Origin: a bacterium
GTDB lineage: Bacteria; Cyanobacteriota; Vampirovibrionia; Gastranaerophilales; Gastranaerophilaceae
Assembly (NCBI GenBank): GCA_017470815.1
Contig: JAFUXT010000007.1
Location: forward strand, 1-64,000
Direction: 5' to 3'
Length of the DNA: 64,000 nucleotides
Shown: piece after piece, positions 28,795 through 47,059 of the stretch
Numbering within the stretch: the first letter of the stretch is position 1
Layout of the letters: each line of letters starts with the position of its first letter
Notes under the pieces: generated by a model
Told to the model about the DNA's origin: nothing
The model's input: the letters and a program-made list of their open reading frames with translations, nothing else
The model's database searches: none
Made by a program: the position numbers and the translations under genes

Positions 28795-29177
28795 GGGGGT
28801 AAATAAAACCTTACCCCTCTACCTTTGGGATACAAAGCGAACCAACGAGGAACGAGTTGTGCGAGCCTGTATGCGTAACGAAGTGAAGCTGAGGGTAGAA
28901 TTTCTTAATGAGCAAAGGCGAATTTAGAAATTCGGGTGAGGGTACAATATAACAACAAAGCGGGAATTTTGTTAATAACAAAATTCCCGCTTGTTTTGTG
29001 TCAGGCAATTGCCTGACCTACAACTCTTATTGTGTCATTCCGAATTTATTTCGGAATCTCCTACTGAACACTCTTAAATTTGATTAGCAAGGAGATGCTG
29101 AAACAAGTTCAGCATGACAAACAGTTCAGAATAATATGTAAGTTGGGCTTTCAGCCCAACAATCCGCTACATATAAT
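28795..29177. repeat. Intergenic repeat array between the acyl-CoA synthetase gene and rpoC2
   Basis: About 380 bp with no gene. In order: a CCCCTCTACC...GGGTGAGGG element (28814-28944) split by the 44-bp piece 28832-28875 that is inverted at 22555-22598; the CGGGAATTTTGTT hairpin (28958-28993); the palindrome TGTCAGGCAATTGCCTGACC (28999-29018); GTCATTCCGAATTTATTTCG (29034 on); GATGCTGAAACAAGTTCAGC (29093 on); and AGTTGGGCTTTCAGCCCAAC (29141-29160). All recur elsewhere in the window. Confidence 0.85.
28958..28993 (+). terminator. Hairpin terminator copy after the acyl-CoA synthetase gene
   Basis: A perfect inverted repeat CGGGAATTTTGTTA / TAACAAAATTCCCG around one base, nearly identical to the rplT terminator. 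The following TTGTTTTG is T-rich. It is 160 bases after the stop codon, so some repeat RNA would be transcribed first. Confidence 0.5.
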
Positions 29178-38300: not shown

Positions 38301-39085
38301 TAAATCACCTCATAAAATAAATGGTGTACTACTACAAAAAATTTTTCTAACTTATGGCTGTTAACCCTCTGCCATCTTTAGTGAATAGTGAGTTGTGAAT
38401 AATGAATAGGTATTATCTGTATCAACAGATATTTTACAATTTCTAAAACCGTAAAGGGCTATTCACTTTTCACTAATTTCTATTCACTCTTAAAGCAAAT
38501 AATGCAATTTTCATGGGTTCGTAAAGTTGGTAAAATCCGCTTGTAATCAAACTTACGCTCATACAGACATAGTTCGCCTTACTTTACATTTTGCATGTTC
38601 TCTAATCGTATTACATAAATATTAATAGTCAAGAAATTTAGCGTAAAAAATACAATAATTTTATTATTTTTTGTAATATAAATTTACAATAAATTTTAAC
38701 AAGTCTGAAAGTTTGATTATTATTGAGTTTTGCTGTCAACCCCAATTAAGCATAAAAGTTGAAAATTGCACAACTAAAGGGTTTTGGCAAATTCGCCAAA
38801 ACCCTTGGGAGAGAAAAGGTTTAGACATTACAAAAGTCCCCTCTGCCTTTGGGAGAGGGTAGAAAATCAAGTTGAGTTTACGAAACTTTGATTTTCGGGT
38901 GAGGGTAAATATGTAAGTTGGGCTTTCAGCCCACAAATAAAATGTTGGGGTAGAAACCCCAACTTACTTATTTTATTTTGTGTCAGGCAATTACCTGACC
39001 TACACCCTGAAACATGTCATTGCGAACGGAGTGAAGCAATCCAGCCGTTTTAATTTGGTGCAAATAATTGCACCCTACTCTCTCA
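38301..39085. repeat. Repeat-rich intergenic region upstream of rpoB
   Basis: A gap of nearly 900 bp with no credible gene. In order: the third GTGAATnGTGA inverted repeat (38381-38490); an AT-rich stretch (38600-38740) that may carry the rpoB promoter; a CCCCTCTGCC...GGGTGAGGG element with an inner AATCAAGTT/AACTTTGATT hairpin (38840-38908); AGTTGGGCTTTCAGCCCA and GTTGGGGTAGAAACCCCAAC (38914-38964); TGTCAGGCAATTACCTGACC (38981-39000); and a segment from 39001 to 39080 (ACATGTCATTGCGAACGGAG core) that recurs at 46488-46605. Confidence 0.85.
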
Positions 39086-39142
39086 AAAAACGAGAATTTT
39101 GTCATTCTGAATTTATTTCAGAATCTTAAAATTCTCGTTTTT
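39086..39142 (-). terminator. Terminator hairpin with a palindromic repeat in its loop
   Basis: The outer arms AAAAACGAGAATTTT (39086-39100) and AAAATTCTCGTTTTT (39128-39142) pair perfectly over 15 bp and give a T run on either strand. The loop contains the dispersed palindrome ATTCTGAATTTATTTCAGAA (from 39104). It lies 45 bases beyond the stop of the 152-residue gene on the minus strand. Confidence 0.7.
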
Positions 39143-39186
39143 ATATTTTTGGTTGGGTTTCACCCAACCTACAGGCTTACTTATTA

Positions 39187-39645
39187 TTACTTATCACCAT
39201 TAATTTTACCTGCATTATAAATACTAATTAAAAGTGGTGGTAACATAGCAAGCATTGCGAACAAGCCCATTGCTCCTACTGCTTTATATTTTTTAATAAT
39301 TGCTGCAATTTGGTCAGGTTTTGTTAATCTGCCACCCGAAGGCATTTCGCCTGTTACAAAGCGCTTAATCGCTTTACCTATCACAGTTTTATCATTAAAT
39401 AATTTTTCTCCGGCTCTTTCAAAGTGTCTATAAAGTGAACCTGCTTTGGAAAATACTTTGCTACCATTAGATATAGCAATTCTATCTCCACAAACACCAT
39501 TTGCAATTGTTATACCTTTTGCCAATAACAAACCTGTTACACCTGCACCTACGCCAACATTTGCCACATTCAAAACATGGCGTAATGTGCGATTTTTAGA
39601 CTGATATTGTTGCTGACCTTCAAAATTTACACCACCGATACTCAT
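39187..39645 (-). CDS. Small membrane protein of unknown function with N-terminal F-x-G
   Basis: 152 residues; family not recognised. MSIGGVNFEGQQQ is followed by a basic stretch and a hydrophobic segment (VANVGVGAGVTGLLLAKGIT, residues 27-46), a soluble middle part and a C-terminal membrane helix (GAMGLFAMLAMLPPLLISIY). The F-E-G at residues 8-10 resembles motifs in other unknown proteins here. AAAGGAG precedes ATG. It is flanked by repeats whose partners occur in the same order at 46.5-46.95 kb without this gene, so it may be a mobile or recently lost cassette. Confidence 0.65.
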   Translation of the reverse strand: MSIGGVNFEGQQQYQSKNRTLRHVLNVANVGVGAGVTGLLLAKGITIANGVCGDRIAISNGSKVFSKAGSLYRHFERAGEKLFNDKTVIGKAIKRFVTGEMPSGGRLTKPDQIAAIIKKYKAVGAMGLFAMLAMLPPLLISIYNAGKINGDK

Positions 39646-39838: not shown

Positions 39839-40684
39839 ATGTTTTATTTTGATAAAATTGATGGCAAAAAAATTTTAAAATCGGACTTAATAACGAAAGC
39901 AAATGCTTTTTTTACAACAAAAGAAATTTGTATTTGTGATAAAACTCAATTTGATGAAAGCAAAAATTATAAGATTCAAAAATCCCCTGTTAAAATTCCC
40001 ATATCATGTGATCGGGATGAGATCCTGAAACAAGTTCAGGATGACAGTAAAACTGTCGTTCAGAATGACAAAATTTTTGCAATTGAATATAACAAAAAAC
40101 TTATTGCAAATTATTTAAAAATTGAACCTGAAAATCTTATTTTCCCAACCCAAACTCATAGCGCAAATGTAGATATAGCAATAGAAAACAAATTTGAATA
40201 CCCCGATACTGACGGATTAATTTTGACAAAAAATAACTTTGCAATTTTTTTAAATTTTGCCGATTGCACTCCATTAATTTTTTATGATGAAAAACAAAAT
40301 ATCGGTGCTGTTTCACATGCCGGCTGGAGAGGAACAGCACAAAAAATTGCACAAATTACCGCCCAAAAATTGATAAGTGAATTTGGTTCAAGCCCTCAAG
40401 ATATTTGTGTTTTAATAGGTCCTGCAATTTGCGGAAAATGTTATGAAGTTGGAGAAGAAGTGTATAATAATTTTTCCCCCTCACCCCTGCCCCCTCTCCC
40501 CAAAGGGGCGAGGGAATGTAAGATAGACCTCAAAGAAATTAATAGAAAACAGTTAGCCGACATTGGCATAGAAAAAATTGACATTTGCCCGTATTGTACA
40601 TGTTGTAACAACGAACTTTTCTTCTCATACAGAAAAGAAAACGGTACAACTTTAAGACACAGCGCAGTGTTAAAATTAAACTAA
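39839..40684 (+). CDS. pgeF: PgeF/YfiH-type peptidoglycan editing factor (laccase-fold) with repeat insertions
   Basis: 281 residues of the YfiH/PgeF polyphenol-oxidase family, which hydrolyses mis-incorporated muropeptides. Metal-site motifs are present: TQTHSANVDI, NFADCTPLIF, AVSHAGWRGTAQKIA, IGPAICGKCYEVGEEV and the C-terminal CPYCTCC and FFSYRKENGTTLRHSAVL. Two stretches are translated intergenic repeats: EILKQVQDDS at residues 61-70 and SPSPLPPLPKGARE near residues 213-226. Both lie between conserved blocks and keep the frame, so the protein is probably still functional. It starts without a Shine-Dalgarno. Confidence 0.88.
   Translation: MFYFDKIDGKKILKSDLITKANAFFTTKEICICDKTQFDESKNYKIQKSPVKIPISCDRDEILKQVQDDSKTVVQNDKIFAIEYNKKLIANYLKIEPENLIFPTQTHSANVDIAIENKFEYPDTDGLILTKNNFAIFLNFADCTPLIFYDEKQNIGAVSHAGWRGTAQKIAQITAQKLISEFGSSPQDICVLIGPAICGKCYEVGEEVYNNFSPSPLPPLPKGARECKIDLKEINRKQLADIGIEKIDICPYCTCCNNELFFSYRKENGTTLRHSAVLKLN
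40019..40048 (+). repeat. CTGAAC palindrome inserted in frame within pgeF
   Basis: The 30 bases here are identical to 42591-42620 in the U32 peptidase gene. The core ATCCTGAA / TTCAGGAT is palindromic, and the element is read in the same phase in both genes, as EILKQVQDDS. Related intergenic copies include 29093-29115. Confidence 0.92.
40476..40515 (+). repeat. CCCTC...GAGGG repeat inserted in frame within pgeF
   Basis: CCCCTCACCCCTGCCCCCTC followed by TCCCCAAAGGGGCGAGGG is the reverse-oriented form of the intergenic CCCTCTGCC...GGGTGAGGG family (21750, 28814, 38840). It encodes a proline-rich loop and does not break the frame. Confidence 0.8.
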
Positions 40685-40780
40685 ACATTAAAATATGTAA
40701 AAATATTGCTATAAATGTAGCAAAAAATCATTATACATGCTATTTATAATATATAGTAAGGTCAGAAGGTGGGTAAATTT

Positions 40781-41155
40781 ATGAAAAAATTTTTACTTTT
40801 TTTATTTATCTTTTTATTTACAGCAACAACTGCAAATGCAGGAACTGCTTATGTTCGTTACAATAATGCCGGTTCACCGATGACCGTCACAAGAGGATAT
40901 AGCAGACCTTTAAGAATTTCAGAAGTAAACCAATACAATTATGCACGCAGAGCAAGACCATCAATGCCATCTCGTCCTGCAATGCCATACGGATACAGAA
41001 CAAGACACGCTCATATTCCGCGGGCACTGACAAATTACAATTTCCCGTCACCTGTTCAATCTGCAACAATTCCGCAATCAAGACTTGACAGAAACTTCAA
41101 TGCGGTTATTCCGACAAAAAGTTACACTATGAACGGGGTCACATACTATAACTAA
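40781..41155 (+). CDS. Small secreted Arg/Tyr/Pro-rich protein
   Basis: 124 residues from ATG 40781, which has AGAAGGTGGG upstream; an in-frame GTG at 40769 is less likely. The signal peptide is clear (MKKFLLFLFIFLFTATTANA, cleavage after ANA). The mature part is basic and rich in Arg, Tyr, Pro and Asn (PRALTNYNFPSP, RARPSMPSRPAMPYGYRTRH) with no cysteine. No family is recognised; an envelope or cell-wall-associated structural role is possible. It is monocistronic with its own terminator. Confidence 0.7.
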   Translation: MKKFLLFLFIFLFTATTANAGTAYVRYNNAGSPMTVTRGYSRPLRISEVNQYNYARRARPSMPSRPAMPYGYRTRHAHIPRALTNYNFPSPVQSATIPQSRLDRNFNAVIPTKSYTMNGVTYYN

Positions 41156-41185
41156 AATTTGACAAATACAACAAGTTTCATAACA

Positions 41186-41216
41186 AAAGCAGTCTTCGAC
41201 TGAAGACTGCTTTAAA
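41186..41216 (+). terminator. Intrinsic terminator after the small secreted protein gene
   Basis: AAAGCAGTCTTC (41186-41197) and GAAGACTGCTTT (41202-41213) form a perfect 12-bp stem with loop GACT and a T-rich 3' side. It can also serve the short minus-strand gene ending at 41245. Confidence 0.88.
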
Positions 41217-41244
41217 TTTGGGGGTTGCGAATATATTTATAAAC

Positions 41245-41379
41245 TTAAAATGCTAAAAACAACACCGTAAACATACAACCCAAAGAAACAGCACTGAATA
41301 AAAACCAAGTGTGCATAACAGGGTGCTGATAAGACCAGATTTCTTTGATAGTTGCGGTTGCGTTGGTAATTGTTCTCAT
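41245..41379 (-). CDS. 44-residue single-pass membrane protein
   Basis: ATG at 41379 is preceded by AGAAAGAGAGAATAAAAT, a reasonable Shine-Dalgarno, and opens a 44-residue frame ending TAA at 41245. The first 20 residues are polar (MRTITNATATIKEIWSYQHP) and the rest is one hydrophobic helix (WFLFSAVSLGCMFTVLFLAF). The bidirectional hairpin at 41186-41213 ends it. It is the only coding content of the 41.2-41.5 kb gap. No family is recognised; small membrane proteins often regulate larger partners, but none can be named. Confidence 0.55.
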   Translation of the reverse strand: MRTITNATATIKEIWSYQHPVMHTWFLFSAVSLGCMFTVLFLAF

Positions 41380-41493
41380 ATTTTATTCTCTCTTTCTAAA
41401 AAATGACATTGCGAGGCAAAGCCCGAAGCAATCCATAAAACTCTTTATATAACTATTTTGCATTTTTAGAAAAAAAGGTCATCACCTATTTGG

Positions 41494-41522
41494 TTGATTA
41501 TTTAATTATTTTTTATTATTAT
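41494..41522 (+). promoter_or_regulatory. Promoter of the U32 peptidase gene with -10 six bases before ATG
   Basis: TTGATT (41494-41499), a 17-base spacer, and TATTAT (41517-41522), then six bases (TAAGTC) and ATG 41529. No Shine-Dalgarno is present, again predicting a leaderless mRNA. Confidence 0.55.
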
Positions 41523-41528
41523 TAAGTC

Positions 41529-42842
41529 ATGAAAAAGGTAGAATTACTTTTGCCTGCGGGCAATTTGGAAAAGTTGGAATATGCCGTAAATTACGGGGCA
41601 GACGCAGTATATTTAGGGGTTGTGGATTTCAGCCTCAGAGCAATGAGAAAAGGGGAACTTATAACCTTTGATAACCTCAAAACCGCAATAGATTTGGCGC
41701 ATAAATACGGCAAAAAAGCGTATATGACGCTCAATATTTTTGCGTTTAACAAAGATATAAAACACCTTGAAGAATGTATTGAAATAATTAAAGATGCAAA
41801 TCCGGATGCAATTTTATTCAGCGATTTCGGAATAATGAATTTGTTAAAAAAATACATGCCTGATACCCCTTTACATGTGAGCACACAGACAAATATTTTG
41901 AATTATGAATCCGTAAAATTCTGGCAGGATATGGGCGCAACAAGAGTTGTACTTGCAAGAGAACTTTCAATTCCTGAAATTGCAGAAATAAAAAACAAAG
42001 TTCCTGATATGGAAATTGAATGTTTTATTCATGGTGCGCAATGCGTTTCTTATTCGGGCAGATGTTTGTTAAGCGACTATTTTACAAAAGGCGAAAGAAT
42101 TTCAAATCAGGGAAACTGCTGTCAGCCTTGCAGATGGAGTTACAAACTTGTTGAAGAAACAAGACCGAATGAATATTATGAAATAAATGAAGACGCACAC
42201 GGCACACATATTTTAAGCCCTAATGATTTATGCCTTGTTCACCATTTAAAAGAAATGATTGATGCGGGAGTAGATTCCTTCAAAGTTGAGGGAAGAACAA
42301 AGAGCCTTTATTATGTTTCAGCAGTAGCCAAAACATACAGACAAGCAATAGATGAACTTTACCAAAACCCTGATGCCGATATGGAAAAATATTTTTACGA
42401 ACTCAAAAAAGTCGGCAACAGAGGTTATACAACAGGTTTTGCACTTGGCAACGGTTCGGGCGGTTACAGTTACAACCTGTCAAAAGGACTTGCCGGTGCA
42501 GACTTCTTGTTCGAATTTCATGGTAAAGAAAAAGAAAGAAATTTTTGTCATTCTGAATTTATTTCAGAATCTCCAAAAATTTCTGATAATGAGATCCTGA
42601 AACAAGTTCAGGATGACAGTTATTTATATTTCGTAAAAATAAAAAATAAAATTTTACCAAATGATGAAGTGGAAATCATTACACCAACAGAGCAATTTGT
42701 TACAAAAATTCTTGGAATATATGACGAAAACGGTCTTGAACTCGATGTTGGCAATACAAATGCAGAAGTGTATATAAAATTTGAAAAAGAACCGCAAAAT
42801 TACAAATATGCAATGGCAAGAACTGTCGGGATTAAGGAATAA
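41529..42842 (+). CDS. U32 family peptidase (TrhP/YegQ type) with in-frame repeat insertion
   Basis: 437 residues. The N-terminal TIM-barrel-like part (ELLLPAGNLEKLEYAVNYGA, DAVYLGVVDFSLRA, HVSTQTNILN) and the cysteine signature (ECFIHGAQCVSYSGRC, GNCCQPCRWSY) define the U32 family. Members TrhP/RlhA-type act in RNA hydroxylation, possibly with an Fe-S cluster on these cysteines; others are called collagenases. Residues about 339-364 (CHSEFISES through EILKQVQDDS) are translation of intergenic palindromes inserted before the C-terminal beta-domain. The start is apparently leaderless. yqeG follows 3 bp later. Confidence 0.88.
   Translation: MKKVELLLPAGNLEKLEYAVNYGADAVYLGVVDFSLRAMRKGELITFDNLKTAIDLAHKYGKKAYMTLNIFAFNKDIKHLEECIEIIKDANPDAILFSDFGIMNLLKKYMPDTPLHVSTQTNILNYESVKFWQDMGATRVVLARELSIPEIAEIKNKVPDMEIECFIHGAQCVSYSGRCLLSDYFTKGERISNQGNCCQPCRWSYKLVEETRPNEYYEINEDAHGTHILSPNDLCLVHHLKEMIDAGVDSFKVEGRTKSLYYVSAVAKTYRQAIDELYQNPDADMEKYFYELKKVGNRGYTTGFALGNGSGGYSYNLSKGLAGADFLFEFHGKEKERNFCHSEFISESPKISDNEILKQVQDDSYLYFVKIKNKILPNDEVEIITPTEQFVTKILGIYDENGLELDVGNTNAEVYIKFEKEPQNYKYAMARTVGIKE
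42544..42620 (+). repeat. Pair of palindromic elements inserted in frame within the U32 peptidase gene
   Basis: GTCATTCTGAATTTATTTCA (from 42547) is the ATTCTGAA/TTCAGAAT palindrome also seen at 39101 and 46701. It is followed by the 30 bases at 42591-42620 that are identical to 40019-40048 in pgeF. Together they add about 25 codons without a stop. Confidence 0.92.
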
Positions 42843-45763: not shown

Positions 45764-46402
45764 TTAATATCCGTTTTTAATCCATTCACGCACTCTGAAT
45801 TTTGCACCCAAATCTGTTGCAATCTGTTCGCATTTATTTAAGTTAAGATGTCTGCCTTTGTAGCCTTCCACAACACTTGCGACAGTTTCAAAACCATTAT
45901 CGGCACAGGATTTTATAAACTTTTTAACCTCATCATAAGCACCCTCAAAAACCGGCTGAGACAATTCGTCATATTCTGATGATGATTCACCGTTAAGACT
46001 AACGGAAATTGTATCTATAAGACCTTTTAATTCCGGCACAATATCTCTTTTATAAACGTAATTAGCGTGACCGTTTGTATTAATTCTGATTTTTGTTTGA
46101 GGATATTTTTCTTTAATATACTTTGCAACCTCTTTCAAAACATCAAGTTTTAATAACGGTTCACCATATCCGCAAAAAATGACTTCACTGTTGTCATTGT
46201 CAGGCTTTTGCCGAAGTATCTCCTCAAATTGTGCTATTACATCCTGAGCCGTACAATTTTCATCATCAAGCCAAAGTGTCTGACCTTTGACATCATCTTT
46301 ATCTTTGCGCAGACAAAAAATACAGTCATTTGTGCATTTGTTTGTAAGATTTATATAAATTTTTCCGTCTAACTCGTAAACCAATACATTTGCCATTTTC
46401 AT
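45764..46402 (-). CDS. TatD-linked type radical SAM protein
   Basis: 212 residues. The radical SAM cluster motif CTNDCIFC (Cx3Cx2C) follows YINLTNK; GYGEPLL is the GGE-like SAM motif, and KIRINTNGHANYVYKRDIV continues the barrel. The protein matches the short family annotated as TatD family-associated radical SAM, whose substrate is unknown. It has the partial barrel and no extra C-terminal cluster. No tatD gene is in the window. ATG 46402 or ATG 46396 could start it; AAAAGGGAT suits both. It leads an operon with two F-x-G proteins. Confidence 0.82.
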   Translation of the reverse strand: MKMANVLVYELDGKIYINLTNKCTNDCIFCLRKDKDDVKGQTLWLDDENCTAQDVIAQFEEILRQKPDNDNSEVIFCGYGEPLLKLDVLKEVAKYIKEKYPQTKIRINTNGHANYVYKRDIVPELKGLIDTISVSLNGESSSEYDELSQPVFEGAYDEVKKFIKSCADNGFETVASVVEGYKGRHLNLNKCEQIATDLGAKFRVREWIKNGY

Positions 46403-46685
46403 ATCCCTTTTTCAATATATTAGCATAAATAAAATTATCAAGATAAATTTGTAAAACAAAATAAGTTCTCACAAGCATTTGCCGACCTACACCCTGAAAC
46501 ATGTCATTGCGAACGAAGTACTCTGCCGAGAAAAACAATTAAGTATTGTTTTTCGAAAGGACAATCCAGCCGTTTTAATTTGGTGCAAATAATTGCACCC
46601 TACTCACTATTTAATAATATGTAAGTTGGGCTTTCAGCCCAACAAATAAAATGTTGGGGTAGAAACCCCAACTTACTTATTACTC
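46403..46685. repeat. Repeat array upstream of the hydrogenase operon
   Basis: A degenerate GCATTTGCCGACC piece, then the 39001-39080 segment again (46488-46605), interrupted at about 46520-46561 by a 42-bp hairpin insert (AAAAACAAT / ATTGTTTTT arms). After that come AGTTGGGCTTTCAGCCCAAC (46623-46642) and GTTGGGGTAGAAACCCCAAC (46653-46672). No gene is seen. Confidence 0.85.
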
Positions 46686-46743
46686 AAAAAACGAGGCTTT
46701 TGTCATTCTGAACTCGTTTCAGAATCTTAAAAGCCTCATTTTT
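46686..46743. terminator. Orphan terminator-like hairpin with a palindrome in its loop
   Basis: GAGGCTTTT (46693-46701) pairs with AAAAGCCTC (46729-46737), flanked by A and T runs. The loop holds ATTCTGAACTCGTTTCAGAA, a copy of the same palindrome as at 39104. No gene on either strand ends next to it; the 39086-39142 hairpin has the same design with a different outer stem. Confidence 0.55.
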
Positions 46744-46775
46744 ATATTTTGTTGGGTTAAAACCCCAACTTACAA

Positions 46776-46829
46776 TTTTATAAATGTACTTTACCTCTGA
46801 AAAACGTTTTCCCCTGTACATTTATAAAA
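46776..46829. repeat. Perfect 14-bp inverted repeat
   Basis: TTTTATAAATGTAC (46776-46789) and GTACATTTATAAAA (46816-46829) are exact reverse complements around a 26-base centre that itself contains GAAAAACGTTTTCC. It could form a cruciform or RNA hairpin upstream of hydC; only one copy is in the window. Confidence 0.7.
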
Positions 46830-46855
46830 ACTTTTCAGCCAAAAGGATTGCCCCG

Positions 46856-46948
46856 CCCCACCACATCATATCATATCATATCATATAGCAGATTATAACA
46901 GAGTTTGAAGCATTTTAAATTTGGCTTTACATTTCTTAATATAAATAT
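46856..46948 (+). repeat. ATATC-tandem repeat element, copy 2 (upstream of hydC)
   Basis: Same element as 39717-39809: CCCCACCACATCATATCATA, tandem ATATC units, then AGCAGATTATAACAGAGTTT and GCATTTTAAAT. It ends about 110 bases before the hydC start codon. Confidence 0.85.
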
Positions 46949-46965
46949 ATCAATCCAAAATTAAT

Positions 46966-46994
46966 TTGATTTTTTAGTATTTTTCACTTACATT
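46966..46994 (+). promoter_or_regulatory. Candidate promoter of hydCBA
   Basis: TTGATT (46966-46971), a 17-base spacer and TACATT (46989-46994) lie 65 bases before ATG 47060. The -10 matches the consensus at four of six positions. Confidence 0.4.
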
Positions 46995-47059
46995 AATATT
47001 AATTGTTGTTAAAAACAGCAGTTGTGGGTTTAATGAGACAAAAAGGAATAGGAGCGAGA

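Follow-up and report, generated by a model that had tools for sequence, protein, structure and literature searches.

A TGTC-tagged palindromic repeat inserted in frame into conserved genes of a Gastranaerophilaceae bacterium

Results

The loci and their inserts

The window analyzed in this study is a stretch of 64,000 nucleotides (assembly GCA_017470815.1, contig JAFUXT010000007.1, positions 1 to 64,000 of the forward strand) from a bacterium of the Gastranaerophilaceae (Cyanobacteriota), and two of its conserved genes, pgeF and a peptidase family U32 gene, carry copies of a repetitive extragenic palindromic (REP) element inserted in frame. An earlier reading made from the letters alone (the sequence-only reading) had reported an exact 30-base element in both genes, read in the same phase as EILKQVQDDS. 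This was borne out, and the identical stretch is in fact 32 bp long (ATGAGATCCTGAAACAAGTTCAGGATGACAGT), at 40017-40048 and 42589-42620. No match to its 28-bp core was obtained in 100 dinucleotide-preserving shuffles. The two genes and their inserts are as follows.

39839..40684, + strand, pgeF (peptidoglycan editing factor, YfiH/YlmD fold), 281 aa, with two inserts; Pfam PF02578 (Cu-oxidase_4), E 3e-56, and Foldseek
39957..40080, unstranded, composite palindromic element of ~120 bp at pgeF site 1, with outer inverted arms and a central REP unit
40019..40048, - strand, REP unit in pgeF, read EILKQVQDDS, TGTC tag at the right end
40478..40514, unstranded, CCCTC..GAGGG palindrome at pgeF site 2 (SPSPLPPLPKGARE)
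41529..42842, + strand, peptidase family U32 gene, 437 aa; PF01136, E 5e-92, and PF16325, E 3e-10 (C-terminal domain)
42537..42620, unstranded, whole U32 insert, a 73-bp head-to-head dimer (42546-42618) with short flanks
42546..42573, + strand, left REP unit of the U32 dimer (CHSEFISES), the ATTCTGAA..TTCAGAAT unit
42591..42618, - strand, right REP unit of the U32 dimer (EILKQVQDD), the arm that corresponds to the shared 30-mer

In the U32 gene, the ATTCTGAA/TTCAGAAT palindrome that had been noted upstream of the shared element is present as described; it forms one arm of a head-to-head REP dimer whose other arm is the 30-mer, so that both belong to a single family. The insert folds into a single long hairpin (-30.8 kcal/mol) and adds 25 codons net to the empty site, giving a protein of 437 aa versus 412 aa in relatives. 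The dimer is present in the window, in its two closest relatives (L056 and L057) and in L058 (437 aa); the site is empty in L060-L066 and L068, which encode 412 aa with a conserved KEKINGxELY, and empty sites were found in relatives of 88-93% protein identity. The loop is occupied in L059 by a different element and in L067 by a single unit; L069, from a distant clade, has a dimer of its own. These states amount to at least two independent insertions into the U32 loop (the window type and L069), and the total was probably three or four. In a U32 tree computed without the loop, L060 (empty) clustered with the window, and L058 (filled) clustered with L062 (empty), the latter grouping having modest support (85/82); exchange between species possibly adds to the loop states. 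Between the window and L058, synonymous divergence (dS) was 0.07 in the insert and 0.71 in the rest of the gene, which fits recent spread or exchange of the insert; alternatively, the hairpin DNA may be under constraint, or the copies may convert one another. The closest U32 homologs came from rumen and gut metagenome-assembled genomes, and records of Candidatus Gastranaerophilales/Melainabacteria (Cyanobacteriota) were more distant.

The left REP unit of the U32 dimer is flanked by a further stem (42537-42584, AGAAATTTTTG/CAAAAATTTCT). A matching change occurs on both sides of this stem in L056 (AGGAATTTTTG/CAAAAATTCCT) and on one side only in L057 and L058. The two-sided change in L056 suggests that the hairpin itself may be maintained.

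The pgeF copy of the 30-mer sits at the core of the ~120-bp repeat, other copies of which (78-83% identity) lie in the window's own genome (G000) at C73 and, as a partial copy, C26, and in relatives at G015:C13, G015:C36 and G003:C35. This element is missing from the pgeF of most relatives. Site 1 is empty in L058, L060, L062 and L063. The window and L057 have the ~120-bp element there, L184 and L188 have REP units, L056 has an unrelated element and L186 other sequence. The second insert, which the sequence-only reading had assigned to a CCCTC..GAGGG family, was found at site 2 in the frame it had given; this palindrome is a family distinct from REP, and has few copies in this genome, and in relatives the site holds other versions or other sequence. 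The same reading had counted three families that also occur between genes. Intergenic occurrence held for both the REP units and the CCCTC type, and the count was reduced to two families. No stop codon was found within the main pgeF match in 43 genomes.

Both host genes are under purifying selection, the ratio of nonsynonymous to synonymous divergence outside the inserts being 0.005-0.044 for U32 and 0.15-0.21 for pgeF. Mapping of the insertion points onto predicted structures, which had been proposed as a check, placed the inserts in loops of both modeled proteins. In PgeF, whose model matched solved YfiH/YlmD/PgeF structures best in Foldseek, site 1 lies in a low-confidence segment (residues 36-75, most of it with a predicted local distance difference test (pLDDT) <50) preceding a helix, and site 2 lies in a loop ahead of a strand (pLDDT about 62-71). 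In the U32 protein, the insert lies between the predicted strands 328-335 and 365-371 of the C-terminal part with pLDDT mostly <50, overlapping the segments 341-352 and 357-361 that fall below this value; this model is weaker, with a mean pLDDT of 78, and its top PDB hit, the U32 peptidase Mk0906, has a template modeling score of 0.38 by query length. Alignment of homologs, also proposed as a check, gave clean empty sites for both genes, and distant homologs did not show the inserted peptides as a conserved piece of their fold.

Anatomy and distribution of the repeat

The genome holding the window comprises 2.24 Mb in 83 contigs and is 99% complete; about 37% of it was read as stretches, and the remainder was covered by pattern search. 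The search consensus, TGTC + AT(N)C(Y)GAA + 5-nt loop + complementary stem + CTY with at most 3 mismatches, gave 54 matches at 53 places, and the reversed pattern gave none in the same genome. The unpaired tag at one end was TGTC in 38 of the 53 units (most others being one-base variants), and the first and second pairs of the 8-bp stem, features that the pattern itself largely demanded, were A-T in 53/53 and T-A in 49/53. Stem positions 3 (T-A 26, C-G 19, G-C 7) and 5 (T-A 40, C-G 12) covary, and the units thus form a repeat family with compensatory stem changes. The loop of 5 nt is mostly CTTGT, TTTAT or CTTGA, and a scan free to pick loops of 3-6 nt likewise returned 5 nt; the unpaired tail of 3 nt reads CTC, CTT or CTA. 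Close pairs of units are head-to-head in 13 of 14 cases, with spans of 73-88 bp.

Among 40 genomes (the window's and 39 relatives), the element was present in 34, with up to 132 copies. A phylum-wide sample of 146 genomes gave matches in 51 of 62 members of the window's family and in 0 of 84 others, although other families of the order did have matches in the 40-genome set. An Rfam search over 28-48 kb of the window returned no match. The consensus repeat peptide had no match in a phage collection and hence gave no sign of phage carriage, the 32-aa query being a weak one. Literature searches found nothing on the repeat peptides themselves and nothing relevant on repeats of Gastranaerophilales or Melainabacteria.

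The window's contig (C6 of G000, 104 kb) holds 8 of the 53 units, against 2.5 expected (Poisson p ~0.004, post hoc), and carries three of the four insert-bearing genes. In the relative G007, several contigs (C3, C5, C44, C53, C61, C67 and C68) terminate in or beside a REP dimer; assemblies are therefore probably interrupted by the repeats, and copies may be undercounted.

Further copies in genes and between genes

About 5 of the 53 units lie inside real-looking genes. Beyond pgeF and U32, a NIF3-family gene 23 kb away on the same contig varies across the genus, with REP-filled, empty and decayed-looking versions, and a fourth gene with an insert is an open frame of 731 aa, truncated where its locus ends, with no Pfam match. 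The intergenic copies of the window include the following.

29033..29119, unstranded, head-to-head REP dimer of 87 bp (units 29033-29060 and 29092-29119)
about 38839..38905, unstranded, CCCTC..GAGGG-type element
39100..39127, + strand, single REP occupying the loop of a terminator-like hairpin, an exact copy of the U32 ATTCTGAA..TTCAGAAT unit
46701..46728, + strand, single REP within a terminator-like hairpin

The two flanks of a single REP complement each other far more than mispaired flanks do (mean run 4.2 versus 2.3; 0/5000 permutations), because several of these units occupy the loop of a terminator-like hairpin. Units lying exactly in such loops were seen in the window (39081-39141 and 46684-46745) and elsewhere in G000 (C73:59555, C73:85952, C83:66481 and C26:61016), and the surrounding stems differ between places. 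Orthologous intergenic regions around single REPs are heavily rearranged among relatives. The intergenic regions 38780-39190 and 46400-47000 are mosaics of further palindromic repeats (e.g., GTAAGTTGGGCTTTCAGCCCAACAAATAAAATGTTGGGG and GTCATTGCGAAC..GCAATCC) that vary among close relatives.

A further class of genes with inserts was met in G007, which has 132 REP units and at least 149 genes with a prepilin motif, versus 20 in the window's genome. Of 100 units listed for G007, the 500 bp upstream of prepilin motifs contain 22 and the 500 bp downstream contain none (~3 expected in each). REP dimers or other palindromes stand in frame at L217, L218, L225, L228, L229, L234, L245, L246, L249, L251, L255 and others, in the leaders of type IV prepilin-like genes; these leaders are unusually long, and the inserts lie directly ahead of the FTLAEVLI cleavage motif. 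Of 15 sampled prepilins with an upstream REP, 13 have the repeat within the open frame, and 9 of these 13 have no ATG, GTG or TTG between repeat and cleavage motif, so that, provided the gene is expressed, translation must run through the repeat or begin in it; in some of these genes the REP could itself provide an ATG start. Prepilin peptidase cuts off such leaders in known systems, and leaders would therefore tolerate these inserts.

Discussion

The repeat anatomy matches the CGTC-tagged REP superfamily, and the element is a known kind in a new host lineage. Members of that superfamily have a CGTC/TGTC tag, a stem of 8-9 bp beginning with AT, a loop of 4-5 nt and a short tail; head-to-head dimers predominate, copies are mostly intergenic and occasionally intragenic, and no transposase is linked (Di Nocera et al., 2013, PMC3733652). 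The window's REP shares the TGTC variant of the tag, the 8-bp stem starting with AT, the 5-nt loop and the 3-nt tail, as well as the head-to-head dimers and the mostly intergenic placement with some copies in genes, and it likewise has no linked transposase, PF01797 being the only transposase family searched here. It differs in its tail, which is CTC/CTT (also CTA) rather than the CCA that is mostly found in the superfamily, and in its host, a Cyanobacteriota lineage, whereas CGTC repeats have been listed in Proteobacteria, Chlorobi, Bacteroidetes, Spirochaetes and Thermotogae (PMC3733652).

Rickettsia is the best-known setting of in-frame palindromic elements, and the parallel drawn by the sequence-only reading proved apt, since the Rickettsia palindromic elements RPE-4 and RPE-6 of R. 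conorii have been assigned to the same superfamily (PMC3733652). Compared by published description only, our element resembles RPE-4, RPE-6 and RPE-7 in being an in-frame intragenic palindrome with an ATGAC motif. As with these elements, insertion is in frame in conserved genes with empty homologs (U32, pgeF and NIF3), and different elements occupy nearby sites within one gene (PMC3767692). In contrast to Rickettsia, where orthologs were reported with the insert at the same site, empty and filled states alternate among close relatives in the window's lineage.

Considering these results, we regard it as very probable that the inserts are non-autonomous copies of a TGTC-tagged REP that enter genes in frame and survive in loops. 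We propose that the CGTC/TGTC-tagged REP spreads through the Gastranaerophilales-related lineage mainly between genes, often as head-to-head dimers, and that copies would land in genes at a low rate. Disruptive copies would vanish along with the damaged gene, and frame-keeping copies in surface loops would persist, and translation would then turn the insert into a floppy loop of the protein. Such permissive loops may have been struck repeatedly, or the element swapped, in different species. Mobility may come from an enzyme acting in trans or from recombination between copies, and the inserts are presumably near-neutral. Several points weigh against this proposal: the U32 insertion displaced about 5 codons instead of adding cleanly, no transposition was seen and no target-site duplication was defined, and the window's genome, although 99% complete, has no match to Y1_Tnp (PF01797) and so offers no candidate mover.

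A single ancient insertion per gene, since diverged, would be an improbable origin for these inserts, although common origin was raised for RPE-4/6/7, and whether different elements at one Rickettsia site reflect insertion hotspots or one diverged old insertion was left open (PMC3767692). The decayed-looking CHSELVSES relatives at the same place of NIF3 in much of the genus, and the CCCTC-like sequence at pgeF site 2 in several species, speak for such an origin. The empty U32 form, in contrast, is common around filled rows, where exact deletion in several lineages is unlikely; site 1 of L056 holds an unrelated sequence in a pgeF that elsewhere closely resembles that of the window; and the U32 insert diverged far less than its gene at synonymous sites.

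It is equally doubtful that the REPs are moved by a REP-associated tyrosine transposase (RAYT) of the Y1 type, as is thought for the GTAG-tagged REP doublets known as REPINs. Our element resembles RAYT REPINs in being a non-autonomous inverted pair of REP hairpins, and its copy number correlates weakly with Y1_Tnp presence, which was detected in 16 of the 40 genomes (p 0.014, uncorrected for kinship). Against this, the tag is TGTC instead of GTAG, no RAYT gene is linked, the window's genome lacks a Y1_Tnp match as noted above, and in relatives a REP lay within 1.5 kb of a Y1_Tnp gene at just 1 of 25 loci. Linkage to Y1/RAYT was therefore rejected.

The sequence-only reading had further proposed a mobile family that lengthens proteins and is selected for a stop-free frame. 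The family is indeed dispersed, with in-frame copies and empty sites, but selection for a stop-free frame, by which it would live in genes, is quite improbable. Two of the six frames of a REP unit are nearly always open (51/53 and 53/53) and a third often is (32/53), and intragenic units in the scanned loci of relatives all read CHSELVSES or ILKQVQDD, with VILNLFQN, always open, never used. The total of open frames is nevertheless slightly lower than in shuffles (3.02 of 6 versus 3.4), a fully open frame exists in just 6 of 13 dimers versus 65% of shuffles, and few copies are in genes at all; selection for open frames was rejected on the first two counts. The avoidance of VILNLFQN comes from about 4 independent single insertions, is not significant, and is explained equally well by the hydrophobicity of that peptide. 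The reverse reading of intragenic units is largely forced by stops, and the frame agreement reflects which frames lack stops together with the loss of disruptive insertions, for which survivorship suffices. That the inserts are skipped at translation or cut from the RNA, leaving the proteins unchanged, is very improbable despite the strong hairpin of the U32 dimer, as filled orthologs keep the frame without stops, which would be needless if they were skipped.

On the proposed reading of REP copies surviving in loops, non-coding repeats have become a coding part of conserved enzymes, and peptides such as HSELVSES or ILNQVQND would alert annotators to inserts and not to domains. The side-by-side empty, filled and swapped states at U32 and pgeF site 1 favor recurrent insertion or exchange, and make the Rickettsia question of hotspot versus old insertion testable in this lineage. 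A bolder and tentative idea, which we consider rather unlikely, is that certain protein loops, and the prepilin leaders in G007, are standing docking sites for repeated insertion or swapping of unrelated palindromes, possibly by hairpin-directed recombination and interspecies exchange. If this is true, the elements would regularly supply new coding sequence and would not be accidents.

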